Source: Deltaproteobacteria bacterium (GTDB lineage: Bacteria; Myxococcota_A; UBA796; SXON01). Taken from it: a stretch of 64,000 nucleotides of DNA. The notes beneath the pieces are model-generated. The model worked only from the letters and a program-made list of their open reading frames with translations. It made no database searches and was not told the DNA's origin. A program made the position numbers and the translations under genes. Positions 2,705-23,582 of this stretch are shown one piece after another (the stretch's first letter is position 1; each line of letters opens with the position of its first letter). The stretch is taken from the NCBI GenBank assembly GCA_014191855.1, contig BJHF01000004.1, positions 1 to 64,000 of the forward strand, given 5' to 3'.

Positions 2705-3640
2705 GGGGGGACGAGCAAAGGTCGAGGGGTGAGCGGCCACCCTGGGGGGGAACGCGCGCTCGCGTTCACCCGACGCGCCCCCGCGGCCGCACGGGTGTCG
2801 CGACACTCGACTCCGCCGCGCGATTCACGGTGTTCGCCCGTATCGCACCCCGTCGGAGCGGGCGACGGGCGCGCAAATCTCCAGGGGTGAGCTCCCACCC
2901 TGGGGGGAACGCGCGCTCGCGTTCACCCGACGCGTCTCCCCGAGCGAGCTGGTGTCGCGACACTCGACTCCGCCGCGCGATTCGCGGCGTTCGTCCGTCC
3001 GGCACCCTGTCGAAGCGGGCGACGGGCGCGCAAAGGTCGAGGGGTGAGCGGCCACCCTGGGAGGAACGCGCGCTCGCGTTCACCCGACGCGCCCCCGCGG
3101 CCGCACGGGTGTCGCGACACCCGAACGAACTGCGAAAGTCACGGCGTTCGTCCGTCCGGCACCCTGTCGAAGCGGGCGACGGGCGCGCAAAGGTCGAGGG
3201 GTGAGCTCCCACCCTGGGGGGAACGCGCGCTCGCGTTCACCCGACGCGCCCCCGCGGCCGCACGGGTGTCGCGACACACGACTCCGCCGCGCGATTCGCG
3301 GCGTTCGTCCGTCCGGCACCCTGTCGAAGCGGGCGACGGGCGCGCAAAGGTCGAGGGGTGAGCGGCCACCCTGGGGGGGAACGCGCGCTCGCGTTCACCC
3401 GACGCGCCCCCGCGGCCGCACGGGTGTCGCGACACGCGACTCCGCCGCGCGATTCGCGGCGTTCGTCCGTCCGGCACCCTGTCGAAGCGGGCGACGGGCG
3501 CGCAAAGGTCGAGGGGTGAGCGGCCACCCTGGGAGGAACGCGCGCTCGCGTTCTCCCGACGCGCCTCCCCGGCCGCACGGATGTCGCGACACTCGACTCC
3601 GCCGCGCGATTGACGGCGTTCGTCCGTGCAGGGCTTCATC
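2705..3640. repeat. 157-bp tandem repeat array, six copies
   Basis: Six near-identical units follow each other. The landmark palindrome GTGTCGCGACAC starts at 2795, 2952, 3109, 3266 and 3424, and its variant ATGTCGCGACAC at 3581, giving spacings of 157, 157, 157, 158 and 157 bp. Each unit also carries GGGGTGAGC(TC/GG)CCACCCTGG, AACGCGCGCTCGCGTTC, CGCACGGG and ATTCGCGGCGTTCGTCCGT. No gene is supported in this stretch. Open frames exist on both strands in several phases, but they simply translate the repeat. A related two-copy array lies at 26.0-26.4 kb in the opposite orientation. Confidence 0.9.
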
Positions 3641-3713: not shown

Positions 3714-4097
3714 ATGCTCGCCCTCCTCCTCGCCTGCGCCCGCCCGATGGCCGTCGGGGATTCGCCGGATTCGGATGAGCCGCCGGGGTTGGAGTGGACG
3801 GAGGACACGGGGCCGACGACGGCGACCGTGACCTTTGAGAACGCCACCGACTCCCACCTCAATGTATTCATGTCGACCGACACGATGTGGGTCCTGGACG
3901 GGGTAGGTCTCGACCCGGGCCAGTCGACCTCAAGCCAGCTCGATACTGGAATATGGACGTTCGTGCTGCACGACGACGCATCACACTGTTGGTCGGCAAC
4001 CGGGGTCAACGTACGCGTCGGCGATGCGTTGGAGTACACCGTGACGAGCCTCCCCGGTGAGATCGTCGAGAACCTCAACTGCACCGGCAGCGGCTGA
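3714..4097 (+). CDS. Small lipoprotein of unknown function
   Basis: The protein has 127 residues and a very short lipoprotein signal (MLALLLAC). A Pro/Asp/Glu-rich linker follows, then a single beta-rich domain (TATVTFENATDSHLNVFMS ... GVNVRVGDALEYTVTS) and a C-terminal NLNC. No known family is recognised. The ATG at 3714 is chosen because it opens the signal and follows a TANNNT box by 6 nt. It sits just upstream of the radical SAM operon on the same strand, with a 133-nt gap and its own predicted promoter, so a functional link is only possible, not shown. Confidence 0.6.
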   Translation: MLALLLACARPMAVGDSPDSDEPPGLEWTEDTGPTTATVTFENATDSHLNVFMSTDTMWVLDGVGLDPGQSTSSQLDTGIWTFVLHDDASHCWSATGVNVRVGDALEYTVTSLPGEIVENLNCTGSG

Positions 4098-4216: not shown

Positions 4217-4222
4217 TACCTT
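4217..4222 (+). promoter_or_regulatory. Predicted -10 box of a leaderless promoter
   Basis: TACCTT is followed by 8 nt and the ATG at 4231. No ribosome binding site is visible. It would drive the radical SAM-radical SAM-ferredoxin operon. Confidence 0.4.
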
Positions 4223-4230
4223 CGCAGCCG

Positions 4231-5964
4231 ATGGACGCCGCTCAGCCGACCCCGGAGCAGACCCGCTTGCTCGCCAACGAGGCGGTCGCCAACGAGGCGA
4301 AGCACTGGGTGCGGCTCACCGCGGCGTGCAACAGCAAGTGCATCTTCTGCCTCGACGCGGAGGCGCAAGATGGGCGCTTCATGGCGTTCAACGACATTTG
4401 CACGGAGATCCGGCGGGGCCGCGAAGAGAAGGGGGCCACGCGCCTCGTCGTGAGCGGCGGGGAAGCGACGATCCACCCGCGCTTTCACGACGCCGTCGCC
4501 TACGCGAAGTCGCAGGGGTACCGCTGGGTGCAGACGGTTACCAACGGCGTTCGCATGGCGGATCGGGACTTTTTCCACGCGGCGGTCGCGTCGGGCCTCG
4601 ATGAGATCACGTTCTCGCTCCACGGCCACACCCCCGAGCTGCACGACCGCCTCACGCAGACAAAACGCGGCTTCGAGAACCTCATGCGCGCGATGATCCG
4701 CGCGGTGCGGGATGGCCGGGTGATCGTGAACGTGGACGTGTGCATCAACAAGCAGAACGTCGATCATCTTGAAGCGATCGTGGCGCTGTGCTCGCGGGTG
4801 GGCGTGCGCGAGTTCGACCTCCTCCACGTGATTCCACAGGGAGAAGCGTTCGAAAATCGGAACGAGCTGTTCTACGATGTGGACGAGCACGCCGAGTCGT
4901 TGAGGAAGGTGTTCCGCCTCGCGCGGCACCCCGGCTTCCACATCTGGACCAACCGCTTCCCGGTTCAGCACCTCGAAGGCCTCGAAGAGCTGATCCAGGA
5001 TCCGCACAAGATGCTCGACGAGGTGGGCGGCCGCCGCGTGCAGTTCCGACGTTACCTCGACGAAGGCGCGCCCATCGACTGTCGCGACGCGAAGCGCTGC
5101 CCGCACTGCTTCATCGAGCCGTTCTGCTCCGCCCTGGACCGGCAGGTGGCTCGCGCTCACGTCGGCGGCTTCGACACGTTTGACGTTGGTGATCGGTGGG
5201 ACCTTGCGGCCGAAGCACCGAAAGGGATCCGTTGGATCTCCGCTTCCACCCTGCCGGACTCGCTGGAACGCCCAGTCCGGATCCCCGCGGAAGCACTCGA
5301 TAGCCGCGCGCTCCCGGCCGGCTCGCGGGTCGTCGTCTCCCGCTGGGAAGAGCTCGCAGCGGCCGACGCCACCGGCCTCGAAGTGGAGCTGCGCCTCGAC
5401 AAGGCGCTGTGTACCTGGCTTCTCGAGCACCCCGAGCGCCTGCAGGCGAACCACGTTCTCCATGCGCCGACCCGCCACTCCGCCGGCGAGTCGGCCGAGC
5501 TGGACCCCGCCTGGCGGGCGTTCTTCCTGGCTTTGGGCCGACGGGTGCGCGTCGAGAACCTCCCCGCCTGCCTGGCGCCCGGCACCGAGCTCGTGCCCGC
5601 CACCCGCCGTCTCGACGCGGCCTTGTTCCACGACGACGGCCGCTGGGGCATCGACGCCTTCGTTGACGAGTACATCGGTGAGCATTACCGGGCGAAGTCC
5701 CTGCGTTGTAAGGGCTGCCCCGTTTCTGCGCGCTGCGGCGGCCAACACCTTCAGTCGATCCGCGCCCACGGCTTCGCGCAGCTGGTCCCGCTGAGCGGCG
5801 CCTGGGCCGAAGATGCGGCGGCCCAGCTCGCGTCCTGGCCGACGACCGATCCCGATCCGCGCCTCGCCGCGGGCTCCCCCGTGCAAGCACCCCCGCCCCG
5901 CTTTCCGGTGCCGGGCGCCGCCCCCGTGCCATTCGTGGACACCGACGCGGGCCGGAGGAGCTGA
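4231..5964 (+). CDS. Radical SAM enzyme with two extra Cys clusters
   Basis: The protein has 577 residues. CNSKCIFC (Cys33, Cys37, Cys40) is the CX3CX2C motif that binds the [4Fe-4S]-SAM cluster, and SGGEATIHP is the glycine-rich SAM-binding strand. After the radical SAM barrel, CX5CX2CX5C (Cys284, 290, 293, 299) looks like a first auxiliary-cluster site. A second Cys set, CKGC...ARC (493, 496, 502), lies near the C terminus in a region resembling a second SPASM-like half. The tail is proline-rich. The substrate is unknown. The start at 4231 fits a leaderless promoter, and upstream codons in frame look non-coding. The TGA overlaps the next ATG by 1 nt (TGATG), so the two radical SAM enzymes are translationally coupled. 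Confidence 0.8.
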   Translation: MDAAQPTPEQTRLLANEAVANEAKHWVRLTAACNSKCIFCLDAEAQDGRFMAFNDICTEIRRGREEKGATRLVVSGGEATIHPRFHDAVAYAKSQGYRWVQTVTNGVRMADRDFFHAAVASGLDEITFSLHGHTPELHDRLTQTKRGFENLMRAMIRAVRDGRVIVNVDVCINKQNVDHLEAIVALCSRVGVREFDLLHVIPQGEAFENRNELFYDVDEHAESLRKVFRLARHPGFHIWTNRFPVQHLEGLEELIQDPHKMLDEVGGRRVQFRRYLDEGAPIDCRDAKRCPHCFIEPFCSALDRQVARAHVGGFDTFDVGDRWDLAAEAPKGIRWISASTLPDSLERPVRIPAEALDSRALPAGSRVVVSRWEELAAADATGLEVELRLDKALCTWLLEHPERLQANHVLHAPTRHSAGESAELDPAWRAFFLALGRRVRVENLPACLAPGTELVPATRRLDAALFHDDGRWGIDAFVDEYIGEHYRAKSLRCKGCPVSARCGGQHLQSIRAHGFAQLVPLSGAWAEDAAAQLASWPTTDPDPRLAAGSPVQAPPPRFPVPGAAPVPFVDTDAGRRS

Positions 5965-7046
5965 TGGCAAACCTCGGTTATCTCCAGCTCACCCGCGACT
6001 GCAAACAGGCTTGCCGCTTCTGCAGCAATCCGCCGAGCGGCGTGGATCTCGAGCTGGAGGAGATGCACGGCCTGATCGACGACCTTGTGGGCCGCGGGTA
6101 CGACGGCGTGATCCTCACCGGGGGCGAGCCGACCATCGCGCCGCTGCTGTTACCGGCGGTGCACTACGCGAAGTCGCGGGGCCTGTTCATTCGGATGATC
6201 ACCAACGGCCACCGGATCGCCGAGCGCGAGTTCCTTCGCGAGCTGGTTGAGGCCGGCCTCACCCACGTGCACCTGAGCCTGCACTCCAGCCGCGCGATCG
6301 TTCACGATTTTCTAACCCAAACGCCGGGAAGCCACGGGCACATCGATTCGGCGCTGGGCCATGTCGCCGCCCTCGGCATCACCGCCGACATCAACACGGT
6401 CATCAACGCCTTCAACAGCGATCACCTCGATGAAACGGTGCGCTGGGTCGTGGCCCAGCATCCCCATGTGCGCCACTTCGTGTGGAACAACATGGATCCG
6501 AACATGAACCGTGCGGAGAGGAATCCCGACGTGATTCCCCGGCTCGGGGAGTTCGAGCTGAGCCTGCGCAAGGCGATGCGGTTCCTGTCGAGCACCGGCC
6601 GGAGTTTTCGGGCCGAGCGCGTGCCGCTCTGCTTCATGGCGGAGTTCCCGGAAGCCAGCACCGAAACCCGAAAGATCGTCAAGGAAGAGGAGCGCTGCAT
6701 CCGATTCTTGGATCGCAAGGGCTTTGTGCTGCAGAAGCAGTTCTTGCACGGCAAGACCGCCGCCTGCGACCGCTGTGCGATGGACCCGGTGTGCGCCGGC
6801 TTGTACAGCATGAACTACCACTATGACCCGGCGGAGCTGTTTCCGCTCACGGGCGACCCGGTGGCGGTGATGCGTGCGGTCCTGCGTCGCGAGCCGGAGC
6901 CGGAGCTGGTGGAGCGGGTCCTGGCGCGGCGCGGGATGAGAAGCGACGAACAACCGGACGATCATGGGCAACGCGCGGAGGGGGGCGGCACGGTGTCGCC
7001 TGACCATCGCGAAAGCGCCCGCGTGGTCGTCGGCAACCGAGGTTAG
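5964..7046 (+). CDS. Second radical SAM enzyme with C-terminal Cys cluster
   Basis: The protein has 360 residues. CKQACRFC (Cys13, Cys17, Cys20) is a CX3CX2C SAM-cluster motif at the extreme N terminus, followed by ILTGGEPTIAP. A C-terminal CDRCAMDPVC (Cys268, 271, 277) plus an upstream EERCIRF suggests an auxiliary iron-sulfur site of SPASM/twitch type. It is related in layout to the preceding enzyme but much shorter, so the pair may act in sequence or as a heteromer. The last 40 or so residues are Arg/Gly-rich and probably disordered. The start overlaps the upstream stop, and the ferredoxin gene begins 2 nt after this stop. Confidence 0.8.
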   Translation: MANLGYLQLTRDCKQACRFCSNPPSGVDLELEEMHGLIDDLVGRGYDGVILTGGEPTIAPLLLPAVHYAKSRGLFIRMITNGHRIAEREFLRELVEAGLTHVHLSLHSSRAIVHDFLTQTPGSHGHIDSALGHVAALGITADINTVINAFNSDHLDETVRWVVAQHPHVRHFVWNNMDPNMNRAERNPDVIPRLGEFELSLRKAMRFLSSTGRSFRAERVPLCFMAEFPEASTETRKIVKEEERCIRFLDRKGFVLQKQFLHGKTAACDRCAMDPVCAGLYSMNYHYDPAELFPLTGDPVAVMRAVLRREPEPELVERVLARRGMRSDEQPDDHGQRAEGGGTVSPDHRESARVVVGNRG

Positions 7047-7048
7047 GC

Positions 7049-7270
7049 ATGGCGAACGCGGCGAAGAAGCACCCGAAGAACGTGCCGGGCCCTTGGTACG
7101 TGGATCTCACATGCATCGCGTGCGATACCTGCACGGACATCTCGCCGGAGGTGTTTGGTCGCGATGGCGACCGCAAGGCGTTTGTACGGGAGCAGCGCAC
7201 GGAAGATGCGGCGTTGTTCCTGTTTGCGATGGAGAGCTGCCCGGTGGAAGCGGTGGGGAGCGAGGAGTAG
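7049..7270 (+). CDS. Single-cluster [4Fe-4S] ferredoxin
   Basis: The protein has 73 residues. CIACDTC (Cys22, Cys25, Cys28) plus CP (Cys64) form the CX2CX2C...CP ligand set of small monocluster ferredoxins. Residues such as ISPEVFGRDGDRKAFV match the usual ferredoxin middle. It is the last gene of the radical SAM operon, 2 nt downstream of the second enzyme, and most simply supplies electrons to one or both radical SAM enzymes. Its TAG stop is followed by hairpin element copy B. Confidence 0.85.
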   Translation: MANAAKKHPKNVPGPWYVDLTCIACDTCTDISPEVFGRDGDRKAFVREQRTEDAALFLFAMESCPVEAVGSEE

Positions 7271-7325: not shown

Positions 7326-7354
7326 GGCGCCGCCCCGGAGAGCGTTGCGGTGGC

Positions 7355-7490
7355 CGGATGAGGCCATGCTGTCGCGACACATTCTCACAGCGTCCGCGGC
7401 CGGAGTGGGCCATGCTGTCGCGACACATTCTCACGGCGTCCGCGGCCGGAGTAGGCCATTCTGTCGCGACACATTCTCACAAAGCCATTG
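7355..7490. repeat. 46-bp direct repeat, three copies, each with TGTCGCGACA
   Basis: Three tandem units of 46 bp contain TGTCGCGACACATTCTCAC followed by GCGTCCGCGGCCGGAG. The palindrome TGTCGCGACA starts at 7370, 7416 and 7462. No coding capacity is supported. Confidence 0.8.
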
Positions 7491-15048: not shown

Positions 15049-15066
15049 CCGGAGCTACTCCTCCGG
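15049..15066. terminator. Hairpin between convergent genes
   Basis: CCGGAG and CTCCGG pair around a 6-nt loop. The TAG stop of the minus-strand gene (15055-15057) lies in the loop. No T-run follows. Confidence 0.4.
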
Positions 15067-18000
15067 CGTGACCGAACCCCAGTCGGACGCCACGAAGCCG
15101 CCGCTGGCGGGGAAAGTGAACTGGTACCAGGCGCTGCGGCGGCCGGCGCGCTGCTCCGGCACCTCCGGGGCGACGTCGCGACCCGCGTAGCTCTCGCGCA
15201 GCAGCAACACCGTTTGCCCGGCCGTCTGGCCGACGAAGCAACGATGGACGGGGAGCTCCTCGAAGTGTTCCCCACAGGTTCCGTGCGTGATCGACTCCCC
15301 GCCGGTCACGCCGGCCCACGGCTTGTCGAGCGCCGCCCCGCCGTCGAGGGAGACGGGAAGGGTAACGGGTTTGCCGCGCGAGAGGTGGACGGTGGGGATG
15401 TAACAACAGTGGGCACCAGCCGTGAATTCCCAGGTGATCGGGTCGGGGAGACCATCGCCGTCGAGGTCGGCGATGCTGGGGCGGAGCGCGGCGGCAACCG
15501 CGGCGAGATCAACGCCCTCCGAGGCCGAGACCTCCACCCACCGGGCGACGTTCGGATCGACGATCACGCGCCGGGGCTCAAGGAGTTGGAGGTCGATCTG
15601 GACGAAGCCGCCTTCGAGGCACTGCACATCGGAGATCGAGCGCCAACGCAGCTTCTGCGCGTCGCTCACCCCCGGAACGCCCGACACCCACACCCACGCG
15701 GAGCGGTCCGCGACAACGTCGTGAACGGAGACGCCGTGCGGCGACGTGTAGACTTGGCGATCGCCGCAGCGAACACCGGCTTCGAGGGGGCCCAGGCCGA
15801 GGTCGGAGATCGTGAGGAGGCCGAGTTCGGGGAGAGGGAACCCGGTCGCCGACGCGCGCAGGACGGAACGTTGATCCACGATCGCGAGGGTAAACGGGGG
15901 TGAGGTCGGCTTGCCGGGCGCCCAGGCTGGCGTCCAGGCGCCACCGCGGAGGGTGTCGGGAGCGTCGGGCAGGGGGGGAAGCGCCATCGCCTCCCACACC
16001 CACGAGACGGCGGGGTGCACCTCGGAGTGGCTTGCCGGCACGAGCGATAATGCACGTTGCGGCTCCAGCTCGGTGAACTCCATCCGACCAAAAAGCATCC
16101 AGGCCAGGTTCTGGAGCAGCTCCGGGGTGCCCCATGCGGCTGCGGGCACCAGACCGGTGCGAACGCCGAACGAACCACCCGAATCCGCGGTCAGGGTGCG
16201 ACCATCGGCCAGTGTCAGCGTGAGGTGCGTGTAGGCAGCGCCGCTCCCTCCATCGTACGTCAGCGCGTAGTGATCCACGCGACCATCGCCGTCGTAATCG
16301 GCGTCTCCGGACTCGGGCACGTCGAGCACGTCCAGTGCGCCGTCGGCCACCGACGTCGCCGGAACGCCGCGATAAAAGCCGAATACAAAGGGGGGAGGCT
16401 GCTCGGTCGCATCCACGCTCAGTTCCTCGTCGAGCCTCCCCTCGAGGGCGATCTGGCCGCCGATGGGCGGGCTTCCCACCGGCCGGTACACGAGCGTCCC
16501 CGACCCCGACTCCGCCCAGCGCGCCGGCCCGAGCGTGCCCATCACCTGCGCGAACGCCGCCGCCTTCGGAACGCCGGGCGGAAGTACGACGCGCTCGTCG
16601 ATCCCCAGGGTCGGCACCTTCTCCGCGAGGAACAGCCACTCCGCTCGGTGCGCCCACGCCGGTCCGCTGAAGGTCCCGCGGAAGTCTCGCGACAGACCGA
16701 ACATCGCGATGCCGCCAAACAGTGCGGCTGATCCCCACCGCCCGCCGAGCCGCGCCGCCCCGATCCCGACGATCAACGCCAGCCCGCCCTGCGCGAACAA
16801 CTGCAGTCGCATGGCATCGGGAAGGGGGGCCACCTTGAACACGAATGGCGCCGAAGCCACGAGCAGCCACGCGGCGGCCCGCCACCCTGCGCCCAGCCCC
16901 TTCTTGGCCCCGTGCAGCGCCAGCCCCCACCACAGAATCGGCGTGAAGCCGGCGTGCATCCACAAGAAAAAGCCCGAGCTGGGCCCCGGTTCTCCGAATC
17001 GCGGGAGCAGCGCCCCGAGGACTGACCGCGCGTCGAAGCCCTGGCCCGGCACCAACGCCCGCGCCCCCACGCCGCCGCCCAACTCGCCGCCTCCGACCAC
17101 CAGCAAGCTCGCCCCGACCGCCACGGCCGCCCCCACCCCAAGCCATGCCCGCACCGCCCCCTTTTGCCAGGCGAACACCGCGATGAGCGGCGCCACCATG
17201 ACCAGATCGGCCCGCGTAGCCACTGCGGCGATCCCGGCGCCCGCCGCGAGCAACGCCGATCCCCAGCGTCGATCCTCGCGATGCTCGCCGGCCGCGAACA
17301 GCGCCAACGTGGCCCAGGTGACACCGCTCACGTGCATCGCCTCCGACCACGAGAGCGCGGCGTGCGCGGGGAGCAGCGCCGCCGCGACGCCCGCGCCCCA
17401 GCCGAGGCGCGGCCCAGCCTCTCGGATGCCGATGGCGGCGATCAGCGCTGGCCACGCGCAGGAAAAAAGCAGGTTCGTCAAGAACACCGCCTCGGGGCGG
17501 CTCCCGAGGGCCCACACCCCCGGCCGCATCCACACCGCGTACCCTGGGCCCCAGGTCGAAATGTGCGAAAGCCCTATTCCAACGAGCAGCTTCTCGTACC
17601 CGGCCCCGCCGCCGTTGAACAGCGCTGGCTCCGTGAACCCGACGCGCACCGCGAACGCGATGAGGAACGTTCCCGCAACCAACCGGGGCCACGCGCGCAG
17701 CCGCCACGCGCCGCCGAGCGCGGCAGCGATCCCGATGAGGGCGAGGGAAAGGGTCCGCCAGCCCTCTGAAGGAGCCAGCGCCGCCGAGGCTGCGAGGCGT
17801 TCGCAAAGCGGCTCCAGATGGATCGCGCCCACGGGCCCCTCCACCAGCTCGGGCCGCGGAAAAAGCGCCAAGCCACCGCCCGCGCACTGTCCGTGGTGTA
17901 GCCCATCAAACGGCGCGATCTCCGCGACCATCTGGCCGCCCGCCTCGTCCTCCAGCCGGTACCGCTCAAACTCCGGATGGCTGAGCACCTCCACGACGCG

Positions 18001-18099
18001 CGCCGTGCCAAGCGCCTCGCCCACGCTGGCGAGCGTACCCGTTTCCACGGACACAGGATCGGCGGCGAACGCCACGGTCACCGCCAAAAGCCCGATCAA
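15055..18099 (-). CDS. GT-C-like polytopic membrane protein with large C-terminal exterior region
   Basis: The protein has about 1014 residues from a TTG at 18099 that follows GGGGGAG and opens a signal-like helix (MIGLLAVTVAFAA). After a short periplasmic segment, around ten hydrophobic helices follow (about residues 110-480), including the RVGFTEPALFNG and GPGYAVWMRPG loops that resemble dolichyl-phosphate-mannose-type (PMT/ArnT-like) glycosyltransferases. The last 450 or so residues are soluble and contain calcium-loop-like DADYDGDGRVD and DLDGDGLPD motifs and several cysteines. The glycosyltransferase call is from topology only. Much longer in-frame N termini are possible but read as the antisense of the divergent gene. 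Confidence 0.55.
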   Translation of the reverse strand: MIGLLAVTVAFAADPVSVETGTLASVGEALGTARVVEVLSHPEFERYRLEDEAGGQMVAEIAPFDGLHHGQCAGGGLALFPRPELVEGPVGAIHLEPLCERLAASAALAPSEGWRTLSLALIGIAAALGGAWRLRAWPRLVAGTFLIAFAVRVGFTEPALFNGGGAGYEKLLVGIGLSHISTWGPGYAVWMRPGVWALGSRPEAVFLTNLLFSCAWPALIAAIGIREAGPRLGWGAGVAAALLPAHAALSWSEAMHVSGVTWATLALFAAGEHREDRRWGSALLAAGAGIAAVATRADLVMVAPLIAVFAWQKGAVRAWLGVGAAVAVGASLLVVGGGELGGGVGARALVPGQGFDARSVLGALLPRFGEPGPSSGFFLWMHAGFTPILWWGLALHGAKKGLGAGWRAAAWLLVASAPFVFKVAPLPDAMRLQLFAQGGLALIVGIGAARLGGRWGSAALFGGIAMFGLSRDFRGTFSGPAWAHRAEWLFLAEKVPTLGIDERVVLPPGVPKAAAFAQVMGTLGPARWAESGSGTLVYRPVGSPPIGGQIALEGRLDEELSVDATEQPPPFVFGFYRGVPATSVADGALDVLDVPESGDADYDGDGRVDHYALTYDGGSGAAYTHLTLTLADGRTLTADSGGSFGVRTGLVPAAAWGTPELLQNLAWMLFGRMEFTELEPQRALSLVPASHSEVHPAVSWVWEAMALPPLPDAPDTLRGGAWTPAWAPGKPTSPPFTLAIVDQRSVLRASATGFPLPELGLLTISDLGLGPLEAGVRCGDRQVYTSPHGVSVHDVVADRSAWVWVSGVPGVSDAQKLRWRSISDVQCLEGGFVQIDLQLLEPRRVIVDPNVARWVEVSASEGVDLAAVAAALRPSIADLDGDGLPDPITWEFTAGAHCCYIPTVHLSRGKPVTLPVSLDGGAALDKPWAGVTGGESITHGTCGEHFEELPVHRCFVGQTAGQTVLLLRESYAGRDVAPEVPEQRAGRRSAWYQFTFPASGGFVASDWGSVTPEE

Positions 18100-18123
18100 T
18101 GCTCCCCCAAGTGAAACGGACGC

Positions 18124-18166
18124 TTGAGTGTAGCGCGCTTCTCTCCTATACTGCCGAATCCGGAGG
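18124..18166 (+). promoter_or_regulatory. Predicted sigma-70 promoter and ribosome binding site
   Basis: TTGAGT (18124-18129), 17 nt, then TATACT (18147-18152) fits a sigma-70 promoter. GGAGG follows at 18162-18166. On the opposite strand TACACT (18127-18132) can serve the divergent membrane-protein gene. Confidence 0.55.
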
Positions 18167-18172
18167 TGTCTT

Positions 18173-20755
18173 ATCCGACCCGCCCTCCTCACTTTGGCCG
18201 CGCTGTCGCTTCTCGTGGGCTGCGAGAACAACAACGGCGTCACGAAATTCACGAAGCCCCCCGTCGTCGTCATCGAAACGCCATCCGATGGCGCTTCGAT
18301 CGACGAGGGCGTTCCCGTTTCCATGCGCGGCCGCGTGGTGGACGAGAACTTCGAAACGTCGCTGTCGAGCATCTCGGCCACCTGGGCCGTGAGCGGCGGA
18401 ACCGTCTGCGAAGGCGCTGTATTCGACACGAACGGGCTCACGGAATGCGCCACGGTGTTCAGCCGGGGCACCGCGCAGATCACGCTCACGGCGATCAACC
18501 CCGATGGGGAGTCCGCCGTCGGTACGGTGGATGTGATCGTCAACAAAAACGAGGCCCCAACCGCCGAGATCATCACACCCGAGTTCGGCGGCGAGTACTA
18601 CAGCAACGCGCTCACGTTGTTCGAAGGCAACGTGATCGACGGTGAGGATCTCCCTGAGGAGATGACGGTTGAATGGGAGTCTTCGCTGGATGGCGTGCTC
18701 GCCTTCTCCACGAGCCCCTCCAGCGACGGGAAGACGAACGGTACGGCCGTGCTCAGCGAAGGCCAGCACACGATCACGCTCACGGTCACGGACTCCACGG
18801 GCCGCACGGGCACCGACACGACGACCATCGAGGTCGCGAAGGGCAGCAAGCCGGACCTGACCTTGGTGGCGCCGATCTCGGGTGATCGGGTCAACATCGG
18901 GGACACGGTCTACTTCGAAGCCACCGTGTCCGACATCGAAGACGACGCAGACGAGCTCACCTTCTCCTGGGAGTCCGATCTCGACGGGGTGTTCTCCACG
19001 CAGGGCGCGGGCAGCGATGGTACGGCGAACTTCACCTACGATGGGCTCTCTCACGGCGTCCACACCGTCACCGTGTACGCCACGGATACCGACGGGTTGA
19101 CCTCGCGTGACTCCGCGACGCTCTACGTGAACGAGGCGCCCGAAGCGCCGGTTGTGCACATCGATCCGGATCCCGCCGGCTCGGGCGATGCGCTCACGGT
19201 GATCATCGACACGGAGGCGTACGACGCGGACGGCGACACCATCACGTACACCTACTTCTGGTATCTCAATGGCGTAGATTCGGGGCGTACCTCGAACCCT
19301 TTGCCCGCAAGTGCCACCACGCGCGGCGACATCTGGACCGTGTACGTGGTCCCGAACGACGGCGAGGCCGAGGGCCCGTCCGGCGTCGATTCGGCGAGCA
19401 TTGGCAACGGGCCGCCTTCGCTCACCAGCGCGACGATCACGCCTTCACCTGCGTACACCAACGACACGTTGACGGCGACGGCGACGGGCTTCAGCGACCC
19501 CGACGGCGATCCCGAGTCCGAGGCCTACCAGTGGTACCTCAATGGCACCGCGATCGTGGGCGCGACAGACGTGACGTTGGATGGGACCTACTTCGTGAAG
19601 GGCGACAGCGTCACGGTCGAGGTTTCCCCGTTCGACGGTTTCGACTACGGGAGCGCAGTCACGTCTGGCGCGCGCGTGATCCAGAACTCCACGCCTTCTG
19701 CGCCGGGGGTGGACGTCACGCCGAACTATCCGGAAGACGACGCGGAGCTGACCTGCACCGTGGCGGTGGCGAGCACCGATGCGGACGGGGACTCGCTCAC
19801 CTACACCTACAGTTGGACCGTGAACGGCGTCGCGAGCGCGATCACCACGGCGACGGTGGACGCCGGCTACACTTCCGATGGAGAAACCTGGGCTTGCTCG
19901 GTGCTCGCGGACGACGGCTCGGTCACCAGCACCGCCGGCACGGACTCCGTGGTGGTGGGCGACTACACCGCGCCGGACGCACCTGTGCTCACCTCCCTGG
20001 TGGAGTACCGCAATGAAACATCGGCAACCGTGAGCGGGAGCAGCGAGGCGTTCGCCACGATCACCCTGTACATCTCCAGCTCGGCTGGAACGACGACCGA
20101 CAGCGGATCGGCGAACGGCGCCGGCACCTTCAGCTTCAGTGAGGCGCTCACCGCGGGCCTTACCTACTCCTTCTACGCCACGGCGACCGACGCCTCAGGC
20201 AACACCAGCAGCGTGTCCAACGTCGTGACCACGGAAGTGTGCGACCCGACGGACGACTACGAGGACAGCACGACCTACGGGGATAGCTGCGCAGACCCGG
20301 TGGTGGACTGGTCCACGCTAGACGCCGATGGCACCACCACCATCGAGTTCAACGGGAACATCCTGGACAGCTCCGATGACGACTGGATCCTGGTGCAGAC
20401 GGCCGACACCGTGAGCGGCTCCTACAACCCCTACCGTTTCCACGTTGAGATGACCGCCGGCACCAGCGAATACGCCTTTGTGGTGTACGAGGGTGGTTGT
20501 ACCAGCGATTACCTCGAGTGTGGCTCGGGCTCCTCTACCGATCCGGAGGGCAACGGGTACAGCGAGTACGAGGTGTTCCAGGAGGATGTGGGGGAGGGAT
20601 CGCACACCATCCCCGCCGATACCCGCACGTGCGGCGCGGCGGACGAGAACACCTGCGCCGACCTCAGCAGCGACTACTACATCCACGTATTCCGCACGAC
20701 CACCGCCTACTCCTGCCAGGAGTACACCATCAAGGTCACCAACGGCGTCTGGTAG
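18173..20755 (+). CDS. Large lipoprotein with repeated PKD/Ig-like domains
   Basis: The protein has about 860 residues. From an ATC at 18173, placed 6 nt after GGAGG, it would open a normal lipoprotein signal (xRPALLTLAALSLLVGC). The first standard start, TTG at 18194, leaves only MAALSLLVGC and no ribosome binding site nearby, so the start is uncertain. The mature protein is a row of six or so Ig/PKD-like domains (VVIETPSDGASIDEG, AEIITPEFGGEYYSN, LTLVAPISGDRVNIG, ...) followed by a Cys-containing C-terminal domain with pre-peptidase-like features (DDWILVQTADTVSG ... YYIHVFRTTT). It is probably a surface adhesion or scaffold protein. It is followed 55 nt later by a lectin/MopE protein. Confidence 0.75.
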   Translation: MRPALLTLAALSLLVGCENNNGVTKFTKPPVVVIETPSDGASIDEGVPVSMRGRVVDENFETSLSSISATWAVSGGTVCEGAVFDTNGLTECATVFSRGTAQITLTAINPDGESAVGTVDVIVNKNEAPTAEIITPEFGGEYYSNALTLFEGNVIDGEDLPEEMTVEWESSLDGVLAFSTSPSSDGKTNGTAVLSEGQHTITLTVTDSTGRTGTDTTTIEVAKGSKPDLTLVAPISGDRVNIGDTVYFEATVSDIEDDADELTFSWESDLDGVFSTQGAGSDGTANFTYDGLSHGVHTVTVYATDTDGLTSRDSATLYVNEAPEAPVVHIDPDPAGSGDALTVIIDTEAYDADGDTITYTYFWYLNGVDSGRTSNPLPASATTRGDIWTVYVVPNDGEAEGPSGVDSASIGNGPPSLTSATITPSPAYTNDTLTATATGFSDPDGDPESEAYQWYLNGTAIVGATDVTLDGTYFVKGDSVTVEVSPFDGFDYGSAVTSGARVIQNSTPSAPGVDVTPNYPEDDAELTCTVAVASTDADGDSLTYTYSWTVNGVASAITTATVDAGYTSDGETWACSVLADDGSVTSTAGTDSVVVGDYTAPDAPVLTSLVEYRNETSATVSGSSEAFATITLYISSSAGTTTDSGSANGAGTFSFSEALTAGLTYSFYATATDASGNTSSVSNVVTTEVCDPTDDYEDSTTYGDSCADPVVDWSTLDADGTTTIEFNGNILDSSDDDWILVQTADTVSGSYNPYRFHVEMTAGTSEYAFVVYEGGCTSDYLECGSGSSTDPEGNGYSEYEVFQEDVGEGSHTIPADTRTCGAADENTCADLSSDYYIHVFRTTTAYSCQEYTIKVTNGVW

Positions 20756-20800: not shown

Positions 20801-20810
20801 ACGGCGGCGG

Positions 20811-23582
20811 ATGCGTTTGAGGGCTGGGCTTGGGCCGCTCGGGTGGGCGTTGGCGCTCGCGGCGGCAGCGTGCGCGCCGGAAACTGAGCTTGGGGGCCAG
20901 GGTTGGGCCGCTTCGGCGAAGTCGGTAGATGCAGACGCAGACGGCTACGCCGAGGATGTGGACTGCGATGACGCGGACGCCGCAGTGTATCCGGGAGCGG
21001 TCGAGGGTTGCGACGGCGCGGACCAGGACTGCGATGGGGTGGTTGACGAGGCGTGTGATTGCACGGCTACCACCGATGGAGCCCGAACCTGGTATTATTG
21101 CGCGACGTCGGCGACGTGGGCTGACGCGCAAGCGGAGTGTTCGGGGTGGGGCCTGCACCTGCTCGACGTGGACGACGCCACGGACGACGCCCAGTTCTTC
21201 GCCGAAGCGCAGGCGACTTCGGCGGGAAACTGGTGGTTTGGGCTGAATGATCGCGCTGCGGAGGGGGTGTACGCCTGGGACGGTGGGAGCGACAGCCCCT
21301 ACACGAACTGGCGGGCCGGGGAGCCGAACGACTTCGGCGGCAGCGAGGACTGCGCGTGGTACGCGACGACTGGCGGCGGGGAGTGGAACGACAAGGACTG
21401 CTCGGCCATGGCCTACTTTGTATGCCAGGAAGGGTGTGAAACGGCCACGCGGTACGCGGATGCAGATGGCGACGGCTACGGCGATCCGGACACCTCCACC
21501 CGTGTCTGCGACGACGAGGCTGGCTGGGTGGACGACGCTTCGGATTGCGACGACGGCGACGCGGCGGTGAGCCCCGAGACGATCTGGTACGGCGACGCCG
21601 ACGGGGACGGGTACGCGGGCGCGGCGCTGACGACGGCCGCATGCGAGCAGCCCGCGGGGTTCGCGGCGACGGCCGAGGACTGTGATGACGCGGATGCAAG
21701 CGCCTTTCCCGGCGCGGCGGAGCTGCCGGCAGACGGGGTGGACCAGGACTGCGATGGCGCCGACGCCTGCACCTGGTATGCGGACGCGGACGCGGACGGA
21801 TGGGGCGACGCAACGGTGACGACGGAGGACTGCGCCGGGGTGCCGGGCGGCTTCGTTGCGGAGGCCGGAGACTGCGATGACACCGATGGGAGCGTGTTCC
21901 CCGGAGCGACCGACACGCCCTACGACGGCGTGGACAGCGACTGCAGCGGCGGCTCTGACGACGACGCGGACGGGGATGGGAGCGACGGCAACGGCGGCCC
22001 AGACTGCGACGACACCGACCCGAGCGTGGCGCCTGGGCTGATCGAGGTCTGCGACGGCGTGGACCAGGACTGCGACGCGGAGATCGACGCGGGCGGGGAC
22101 TGCCCTGCGGAGGTGGTGACCTACGACGATCATGCCTACTTTTTCGTGACGGGCGCGGCCACCTGGACGGCGGCGCAGACGGGGTGCGACTCCGTTGGCT
22201 ACCACCTCGTTGACGTGCGAGACGCGGCGGAAGAAGCGTGGATCTGGGGCGAGGCGGAGGCGGCTCTGCCGACCGCGGCGTGGTGGCAGGGGGCGAACGA
22301 CCAGGCGGCGGAAGGGACGTTCGAGTGGGATGGGGGGAGCGCCTCGACCTACGCCAACTGGCGCGCCGGCGAACCAAACGACTTTGGTGGCAGCGAAGAC
22401 TGCGCCGCGTTCGCCGACGATGGCGGCGGCGCGTGGAACGACCGGGACTGCGCGAACACCTACCCGTACATCTGCGAGGCCGGCTGCGAGCGCATCGACA
22501 GCTACGCGGATGCGGATGGGGACGGCGCCGGAAACGCAGCGGTGTCTGCCAGCGATTGCGAAGTCGCGACGGGGTACGTGGCGGATGCGACGGACTGCGA
22601 CGACGCCGACGCGACGGTGTTCGTGGGCGCGGTCGAGGTGTGCAACGAGCACGACGACAACTGCGATGGCCTCGTGGACGACGCCGATCCGGGCGTCGAT
22701 CCTATGACGTTCGCCATGTGGTACGCCGATTACGATGGCGACGGCGACGGCGTGCCGACCGAAACCTTGGTGGTCTGCGCGCCGCCCCCGGGCTGGGCGC
22801 TCACCGCGACCGACTGCGACGACGAGAACGCGTCGATCTACGCCGGCGCCCCCGATCCCGTAGACGGCGTGGACCAGGACTGCGCGGGCGATGACGAGGC
22901 CTGGGACGCGGACGCGGACGGCATTTGGGACACGGTCGAGCGGCGCCTGGGGCTCGACCCGGCCGACGCCGACAGCGACGACGACGGCCTACCGGACGGC
23001 GCCGAGCTGGACGACGCGGGCGCGCTCCGCGACTCGGATACCGACGGCCTCCCCGACGCGCTCGATCCCGACGACGACGGCGACTCCCTCCCGACCGCCG
23101 ACGAGCTCGGCCCCGACGGCGCGGTGGACACCGACGGGGACGGCCAGCCCGACCACCTCGACCTCGACAGCGACAACGATGGTTCCCCCGATCAAGAGGA
23201 AGCCGGCCGCGACAGCGATCACGACGGCATCCCCAACGCCCAGGAGGCCGACGACGACGCCGATGGACTCGCCAGTTTTGACGAGGACGCAGGCGACTCC
23301 GATTTGGACGGGGACGGCGTCCCGAATTCTCTGGACCAGGACAGCGACGGGGACGGCTGCCGCGACGCTGAGGAGCCGGAGGGGGCCTGGGCGGACCCGT
23401 CGCTCGGCTGCGGCGAGGACAGCGGTGGGGACGACGCGGACGACACGGCAGCAGGGGGAACCTCGCCTCCGGGGGGGTGCGGGTGTGGGCACGCCGACGG
23501 GGTTGGCGGCGTGCTTGCGCTCACGATGGCGGGGGGAACCTTGCTGCGCCGCAGTGTTCCCAAGCGGGCATCGGCGCGATAG
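20811..23582 (+). CDS. Surface protein: two C-type lectin domains, MopE repeats, MYXO-CTERM tail
   Basis: The protein has 923 residues. After an N-terminal signal (ALALAAAAC) come MopE-type metal-binding repeats (DADADGYAEDVDCDDADAAVYPGA ... DQDCDG). A C-type lectin domain follows at about residues 85-205 (WWFGLNDRA, AGEPNDFGGSEDC, YFVCQEGC). More MopE repeats come next, then a second C-type lectin domain at about residues 440-560 with the same AGEPNDFGGSEDC motif, and more repeats. A run of DxDxDGxxD thrombospondin-3-like calcium repeats follows. The C terminus (GGCGCGHADGVGGVLALTMAG ... RRS...KRASAR) matches the MYXO-CTERM sorting pattern. It is probably a calcium-dependent, carbohydrate-binding surface protein. 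Confidence 0.85.
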   Translation: MRLRAGLGPLGWALALAAAACAPETELGGQGWAASAKSVDADADGYAEDVDCDDADAAVYPGAVEGCDGADQDCDGVVDEACDCTATTDGARTWYYCATSATWADAQAECSGWGLHLLDVDDATDDAQFFAEAQATSAGNWWFGLNDRAAEGVYAWDGGSDSPYTNWRAGEPNDFGGSEDCAWYATTGGGEWNDKDCSAMAYFVCQEGCETATRYADADGDGYGDPDTSTRVCDDEAGWVDDASDCDDGDAAVSPETIWYGDADGDGYAGAALTTAACEQPAGFAATAEDCDDADASAFPGAAELPADGVDQDCDGADACTWYADADADGWGDATVTTEDCAGVPGGFVAEAGDCDDTDGSVFPGATDTPYDGVDSDCSGGSDDDADGDGSDGNGGPDCDDTDPSVAPGLIEVCDGVDQDCDAEIDAGGDCPAEVVTYDDHAYFFVTGAATWTAAQTGCDSVGYHLVDVRDAAEEAWIWGEAEAALPTAAWWQGANDQAAEGTFEWDGGSASTYANWRAGEPNDFGGSEDCAAFADDGGGAWNDRDCANTYPYICEAGCERIDSYADADGDGAGNAAVSASDCEVATGYVADATDCDDADATVFVGAVEVCNEHDDNCDGLVDDADPGVDPMTFAMWYADYDGDGDGVPTETLVVCAPPPGWALTATDCDDENASIYAGAPDPVDGVDQDCAGDDEAWDADADGIWDTVERRLGLDPADADSDDDGLPDGAELDDAGALRDSDTDGLPDALDPDDDGDSLPTADELGPDGAVDTDGDGQPDHLDLDSDNDGSPDQEEAGRDSDHDGIPNAQEADDDADGLASFDEDAGDSDLDGDGVPNSLDQDSDGDGCRDAEEPEGAWADPSLGCGEDSGGDDADDTAAGGTSPPGGCGCGHADGVGGVLALTMAGGTLLRRSVPKRASAR

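Follow-up and report, generated by a model that had tools for sequence, protein, structure and literature searches.

Which pathway do two neighbouring radical S-adenosylmethionine (SAM) enzymes serve when no gene beside them names it? The question is raised by a three-gene operon (positions 4231–7270) in a 64,000-nucleotide (nt) stretch of contig BJHF01000004.1 from a Deltaproteobacteria bacterium, hereafter the window, which encodes two radical SAM enzymes, here called A and B, and a small ferredoxin. Our comparison of the operon with its relatives indicates that all three proteins serve as maturation enzymes in an expanded His-Xaa-Ser (Hxs) peptide system, in which B takes the place of HxsC, A is an additional enzyme and the repeat peptide HxsA4 is the probable substrate. 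We assign this reading a probability of about 0.76.

The first-pass annotation of this DNA, made from the sequence alone, had described a coupled operon, which is borne out by the 1-nt overlap between A and B, the 2-nt gap before the ferredoxin (both measured on the window's open reading frames) and the Pfam matches: A and B match Radical_SAM (PF04055) at 63.8 and 72.6 bits, above a cut-off of 29.5, and the ferredoxin matches Fer4_13 at 57.6 bits (cut-off 24.5). Its operon start at position 4217 is out of frame with A and is replaced here by the ATG at 4231, which we read as the start codon because the earlier cysteine numbering then fits exactly. Radical SAM enzymes reductively cleave SAM at a CX3CX2C cluster and abstract a hydrogen, after which crosslinking, epimerization or oxidation follows; the ferredoxin is the probable electron donor. 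The CX3CX2C motif is invariant in 39 of 39 aligned A sequences and 43 of 43 aligned B sequences. In the N-terminal domain of A, this motif (C33/C37/C40) is followed by C284-X5-C290-X2-C293-X5-C299, and the C-terminal half carries PxC447 and a CX2CX5C motif (C493/C496/C502); all 11 of these cysteines are invariant, including the three sets (33/37/40, 284–299 and 493–502) picked out at first pass. B, rightly described as short with one C-terminal cysteine set, has invariant C13/C17/C20, C223 and C268/C271/C277, with C245 conserved at 91%.

A pattern-based search with B across 84,980 species genomes yielded 48 loci (numbered with the prefix L), mostly from metagenome-assembled genomes titled deltaproteobacterial, proteobacterial or myxococcotal. 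The pair is conserved and its pairing exceeds chance, as a check of conserved neighbours confirmed: A accompanies B in 41 of the 48 loci, of which 37 have the two genes −13 to +26 nt apart; the distance is 154 nt in L039 and 1.9–4.7 kb in L016, L017 and L027. The seven loci without A are L006, L032, L044 (B at contig edge), L013, L021, L046 and L047. The alignments comprise 39 of 42 A sequences (alignment A1; L004, L043 and L045 left out) and 43 of 48 usable B sequences, the window's included (A2; L004, L006, L024, L042 and L043 left out); a third (A3) holds 29 sequences, 11 without the splitting motif as well as L004 and L045 being left out. The ferredoxin, at first taken to be dedicated to the pair, is indeed coupled to it here, yet phmmer (E 1e-3) detected it in 14 of the 48 loci, all from the close clade. 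The same search found no homologue of the small upstream lipoprotein (3714–4097) in any of the 48 loci, and its proposed partnership with the enzymes was rejected. The idea that the operon works by itself, with this lipoprotein or a lipid as the molecule modified, is scarcely credible, since its support is an adjacency seen in the window only and, in addition to the lack of homologues, close relatives have the gene of an HExxH hydroxylase at the lipoprotein's place.

In these relatives, the pair is linked to a named system. Neighbouring frames were clustered and representatives scanned with NCBIfam (R0b and R3–R9 are labels of this analysis); the gene labels denote stop-to-stop frames with best-match names, assigned without a gene finder. 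The neighbours identified are HxsB, HxsD, an HxsD-like protein, HxsA4, an aKG-HExxH peptide beta-hydroxylase (F6) and more groups of radical SAM enzymes. Representatives pass the family cut-offs (in brackets), with 485–496 bits for HxsB (370), 61 for HxsD (50), 52–59 for the HxsD-like protein (41), 113–131 for HxsA4 (55) and 99–105 for the HExxH protein (40). Five stretches from the same genus (L067 and L069–L072) and one from the same family (L074) share a one-contig order, F5(Tat)–hxsD–hxsB–hxsA4–R0b–R0b–R5–R4–HExxH(−)–A–B–ferredoxin, in which F5 has a signal resembling that for twin-arginine translocation (Tat) in most of 15 aligned rows. A/B lie approximately 8–13 kb from hxsD, hxsB and HxsA4 on one contig in the same-genus five, and among all these relatives an HxsD-like frame is labelled in L069 only. 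The same-genus cluster contains seven radical SAM genes, namely HxsB, two R0b, R5, R4, A and B; the R4 gene in L008 and L074 is without CX3CX2C, and none of the scanned cluster enzymes reaches the HxsC4 cut-off of 500 (R5 153.6, R4 93.5 and the second R0b 88.5 bits). Across the 48 loci, an HxsB frame is present in the fetched flank of 18 and a peptide with His-Gly-Ser (HGS) repeats, found by a text scan for arrays, in 21; hxsB is followed by the repeat peptide in 16 of those 18.

Co-occurrence, tabulated as both/first only/second only/neither, extends the association beyond these loci. Among 71 genomes of the class, B and HxsB give 33/3/4/31, as do A and HxsB, with 34/2/2/33 for A and B, 34/2/3/32 for HxsB paired with F4 (F4 first; an exported protein encoded further along the window) and 29/7/4/31 for B and HxsA4 over its cut-off; counted by genus, B and HxsB stand at 17/1/1/21. 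In a phylum sample of 282 genomes, B and HxsB give 91/6/5/180, with a Fisher value of 1e-59 that, like the others, overstates independence because the genomes are related. The two genes lie within 20 kb of each other in 45 of the 91 genomes with both; G212, a phylum genome assembled as a single 10.3-Mb contig, has them about 4.5 kb apart. Outside the class, physical linkage loosens and co-occurrence holds.

What kind of enzyme are A and B themselves? Among the NCBIfam matches listed, the best for A is HxsC4 (NF038332; 86.8 bits, cut-off 500) and the best for B is HxsC (TIGR03977; 83.2 bits, cut-off 267.9), with 78.3 bits for A against HxsC and 70.5 bits for B against HxsC4; none of the listed matches, 25 of 50 for A and 25 of 37 for B, reaches its family cut-off. 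In tblastn with B on plasmid records, annotated HxsC proteins are listed at 21–25% identity, together with PqqE, the mycofactocin maturase and others. A tree of radical SAM cores, from which PqqE, MftC and four first-type R0b rows are left out, places six canonical HxsC, eight B and two R9 sequences apart from A and the other cluster enzymes (support 98/97), and A makes a separate group. The HxsC model finds no protein at E 1e-30 in the 71 class genomes, with control genomes silent too, so that absence is not proven. On account of the tree grouping and the silence of the HxsC model in the class, B is best read from its sequence as the HxsC counterpart, though it falls outside HxsC by model score. 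Two radical SAM stretches also occur in a single protein of another group, R6 (L026, 8873–11350), whose frames follow B in five loci.

With moderate confidence, we read A as two fused radical SAM domains, one active and one degenerate. Its predicted structure (predicted local distance difference test score, 89.4) has a radical SAM domain and then strands alternating with helices, which begin near residue 366, and the end of the model at PxC447 and CX2CX5C resembles the end of B's barrel. In hhalign, only the PxC and CX2CX5C region of A's C-terminal half aligns with B, a weak, suggestive match (E 1e-3, probability 22%). Ligands of the CX2CX5C type hold a C-terminal auxiliary cluster in SPASM/twitch-type radical SAM enzymes. 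This motif is conserved twice in A and once in B, and the Pfam SPASM profile, first proposed as a check on A, gives no match at E 0.1 in either enzyme. Comparison with solved structures by sequence or fold gave general radical SAM matches without a pathway clue, A's C-terminal half having been barely tested alone. In other families, A is adjoined by a radical SAM-like group, R3 (for example, L026 4285–6135, and in 15 other loci). The CX3CX2C motif is missing in all 16 R3 frames (six begin at the edge of a contig and may be truncated), and CX2CX5C is present in 12 of the 16; inactive radical SAM paralogues therefore probably recur in these clusters.

The window's own genome holds HxsB, HxsD and the repeat peptide of the Hxs system, none of them on the window contig (Table 1). 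The end of contig C1 carries HxsD, an HxsD-like protein, HxsB, HxsA4 and two radical SAM genes, the last frame ending at 300070 of 300392; contig C94 carries the radical SAM genes R5 and R4 and the hydroxylase; and A/B open C4, the window contig. The order C1 end, C94, C4 start would fit that of the relatives, suggesting that the three pieces are one stretched cluster, and the three-gene operon most likely represents the detached end of such an expanded His-Xaa-Ser cluster. The earlier statement that no known pathway marker is next to the operon is accurate for the adjacent genes; for the system it no longer stands, as relatives carry HxsB, HxsD and the His-Xaa-Ser repeat peptide in linkage with the pair. 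The window's genome also has another Hxs-like locus, on C152 (L063), with HxsB and with R0b-type and R8-type radical SAM genes.

Table 1 Coordinates of the operon, of other window features and of Hxs genes on other contigs of the same genome
Feature	Position	Strand	Remarks
A, radical SAM enzyme	4231..5964	+	577 aa, ATG start; radical SAM domain N-terminal, degenerate-looking second half
B, HxsC-like radical SAM enzyme	5964..7046	+	360 aa; single C-terminal Cys set
Ferredoxin, single-cluster [4Fe-4S]-type (Fer4_13)	7049..7270	+	73 aa
F10 family open frame (stop to stop)	15058..18597	−	No Pfam match; after ferredoxin or B in several relatives
F4, exported, PKD/bacterial Ig domains	18134..20755	+	Start of the open frame not fixed; C-terminal domain conserved, with TNGVW at its end; lipobox-like motif
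F16 family open frame	20802..23579	+	MopE-type motifs, C-type lectin domains; beside F4 in a few relatives
HxsB	C1:296220		496 bits, cut-off 370
Second HxsB	C152:2365		490 bits, cut-off 370
HxsD	C1:295569		63.4 bits, cut-off 50
HxsA4 His-Xaa-Ser repeat peptide	C1:297767-298150		Over cut-off

Besides the relatedness of the genomes, several observations weigh against the expanded-Hxs reading of A and B. In the window genome, A/B and hxsB are on separate contigs, and both C94 and the window have kilobases of extra DNA between cluster genes. A and B stay under the HxsC and HxsC4 cut-offs, and HxsC with B alone has a support of 66/0 in the tree. HxsA4 is lacking above its cut-off in 7 of the 36 class genomes with B. 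In 46 of the 91 phylum genomes with both genes, more than 20 kb or a contig break separates B from HxsB: they are on different contigs in 44 (the assemblies are often fragmented) and on the same contig, farther apart, in two; among 12 chosen further phylum loci, HxsB is near B in 4 and an HGS peptide in 3. Finally, L045–L047, two of them titled Elusimicrobia, have B in a flank without HxsB or an HGS peptide, and a search of these three loci for repeat peptides found none. Together with the 68 radical SAM matches in the window genome, the 46 genomes without close linkage and the loci L045–L047 would suit a different account, in which A and B serve the maturation of a metalloenzyme or cofactor outside Hxs and the co-occurrence with HxsB reflects lineage and a lifestyle rich in radical SAM enzymes. 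We judge this very improbable, given how closely presence and absence match over the 282 genomes and that one-cluster linkage recurs across different families and orders. L046 (titled Elusimicrobia) and L047 contain eight and nine radical SAM-labelled frames, respectively; some of these overlap, and B is among them.

If A and B belong to the Hxs system, a very regular peptide is the candidate for their substrate. HxsA4 has a leader of approximately 60–70 residues, an unbroken (His-Gly-Ser)n array with 4–49 units seen and, usually, a C-terminal HGQW. In 29 distinct peptides with 543 array units, Ser is third in all units and 502 read HGS; the counting pattern forced His first in each unit and required Ser in the two end units. 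In 8 of the 15 arrays checked, serine is encoded by both TCN and AGY codons, so the repeat is kept as protein and not as DNA. HGQW or W follows 30 of the 31 listed arrays, some loci being repeated in that list. HxsA4 is the probable target of A/B, and modification of a peptide by the pair, as put forward at first pass, is plausible. The HGS array of L056 (12444–13151) matches Pfam Collagen at 37.3 bits (cut-off 27.2), probably through composition only, because Gly occupies every third residue.

Another protein of the neighbourhood competes for this role. F4 co-occurs with HxsB and with A/B, and it follows in stretches L067/L068, L069, L070, L071 and L074, with L072 having it on the same contig. 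A/B could act in the Hxs system on F4, or on the Tat protein F5, and leave HxsA4 to HxsB. In L013 and L015, F4 comes immediately after B, an F4-like gene sits between A and B in L017 and L027, its tally with HxsB is as close as given above, and its Trp or TNGVW ends recall the HGQW of HxsA4: in 16 aligned rows (window 20237–20752 and homologues), 15 end in Trp and 13 in TNGVW; a C-terminal Trp tag common to both proteins is possible. We nevertheless regard F4 or F5 as an unlikely substrate of A/B, as B is present and F4 not detected in four genomes (G065, G066, G068 and G069), and as F4 has no regular repeat of the kind that a many-site substrate would be expected to show. A lipobox-like motif is present in 10 of 18 F4 frames. 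The membership of F16 in the Hxs system is uncertain. Closer to the operon, tandem repeats lie on either side of A, B and the ferredoxin, a 157-bp repeat (5.8 copies) at 2715–3627 and a 46-bp repeat (2.8 copies) at 7352–7481; common to both is TGTCGCGACAC, which has 16 matches in the window on both strands versus 0.12 expected.

With HxsA4 as the substrate, the order of reactions, their chemistry and the location of the product may be pictured as follows. HxsD and the HxsD-like protein would present the leader; the radical SAM enzymes, HxsB, B and A among them, would receive electrons from the ferredoxin or a housekeeping donor, cleave SAM and abstract hydrogen at His or Ser along the array; the aKG-HExxH hydroxylase may add oxygen; and the product would be exported and shown at the surface together with the Ig-domain protein F4. 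The seven radical SAM enzymes, A and B included, might join each His to the Ser two residues on, so that linked rings would run without a break along the array as a rod; the result would be a polycyclic fibre that binds metal, is displayed at the surface and is anchored through the Ig-domain protein. This extension is quite improbable; if true, the product would be a modified structural polymer and not a small natural product of the ribosomally synthesized and post-translationally modified peptide class. Two enzyme families without names and an Ig-domain protein are now tied to Hxs by co-occurrence and linkage, and the hydroxylase by linkage. The analysis also defines a probable substrate of great regularity, in which up to 49 nearly identical sites could be modified, so that the action of Hxs enzymes becomes directly testable.

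How does the cluster compare with systems already described? PMC9062424 credits identification of the His-Xaa-Ser motif to Haft and Basu and calls HxsB and HxsC putatively necessary. We found no functional or biochemical study of the Hxs system in the open-access literature searched, and as far as that literature shows the system is uncharacterized. The first-pass annotation had asked whether homologues of either enzyme belong to a characterized pathway; a system can be named, Hxs, but no biochemistry was found for it and by score A and B are not members of its families. The cluster is most likely a variant of this named system. Like the Hxs system of TIGR03976–TIGR03979, it has HxsB and HxsD over their cut-offs, a His-Xaa-Ser repeat peptide after hxsB and another radical SAM enzyme, B, that appears to be related to HxsC; it differs in its seven radical SAM genes, HxsD-like protein, HExxH hydroxylase, ferredoxin and F4. 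In six canonical plasmid loci, hxsB and hxsC are side by side in five and hxsC occurs without hxsB in one, and the gene table of these six stretches, which is incomplete, lists no further radical SAM gene. With the HxsA4/HxsC4 variant (NF038313 and NF038332) the cluster shares a peptide that is HxsA4 by score, whereas no scanned enzyme reaches HxsC4. SkfB, BlsE, PqqE, SuiB and viperin have the radical SAM core fold in common with A/B, at approximately 11–24% identity and without a pathway link. The family name of the HExxH protein denotes peptide beta-hydroxylation, and a HExxH-type protein, BpmH, is proposed for biphenomycin in PMC12257519. The triceptide maturases XncB, OscB, MscB, HaaB and ScaB, as PMC11002830 describes them, link residues i and i+2, HaaB and ScaB joining C2 of His to the beta carbon of Ala and MscB joining Phe to the beta carbon of Ser. 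A and B are unlike these maturases in that they remain under the cut-off in all NCBIfam matches listed; the HGS repeats resemble the maturases' targets in placing His and Ser at i and i+2, a match in spacing that offers an analogy for how the array may be modified.

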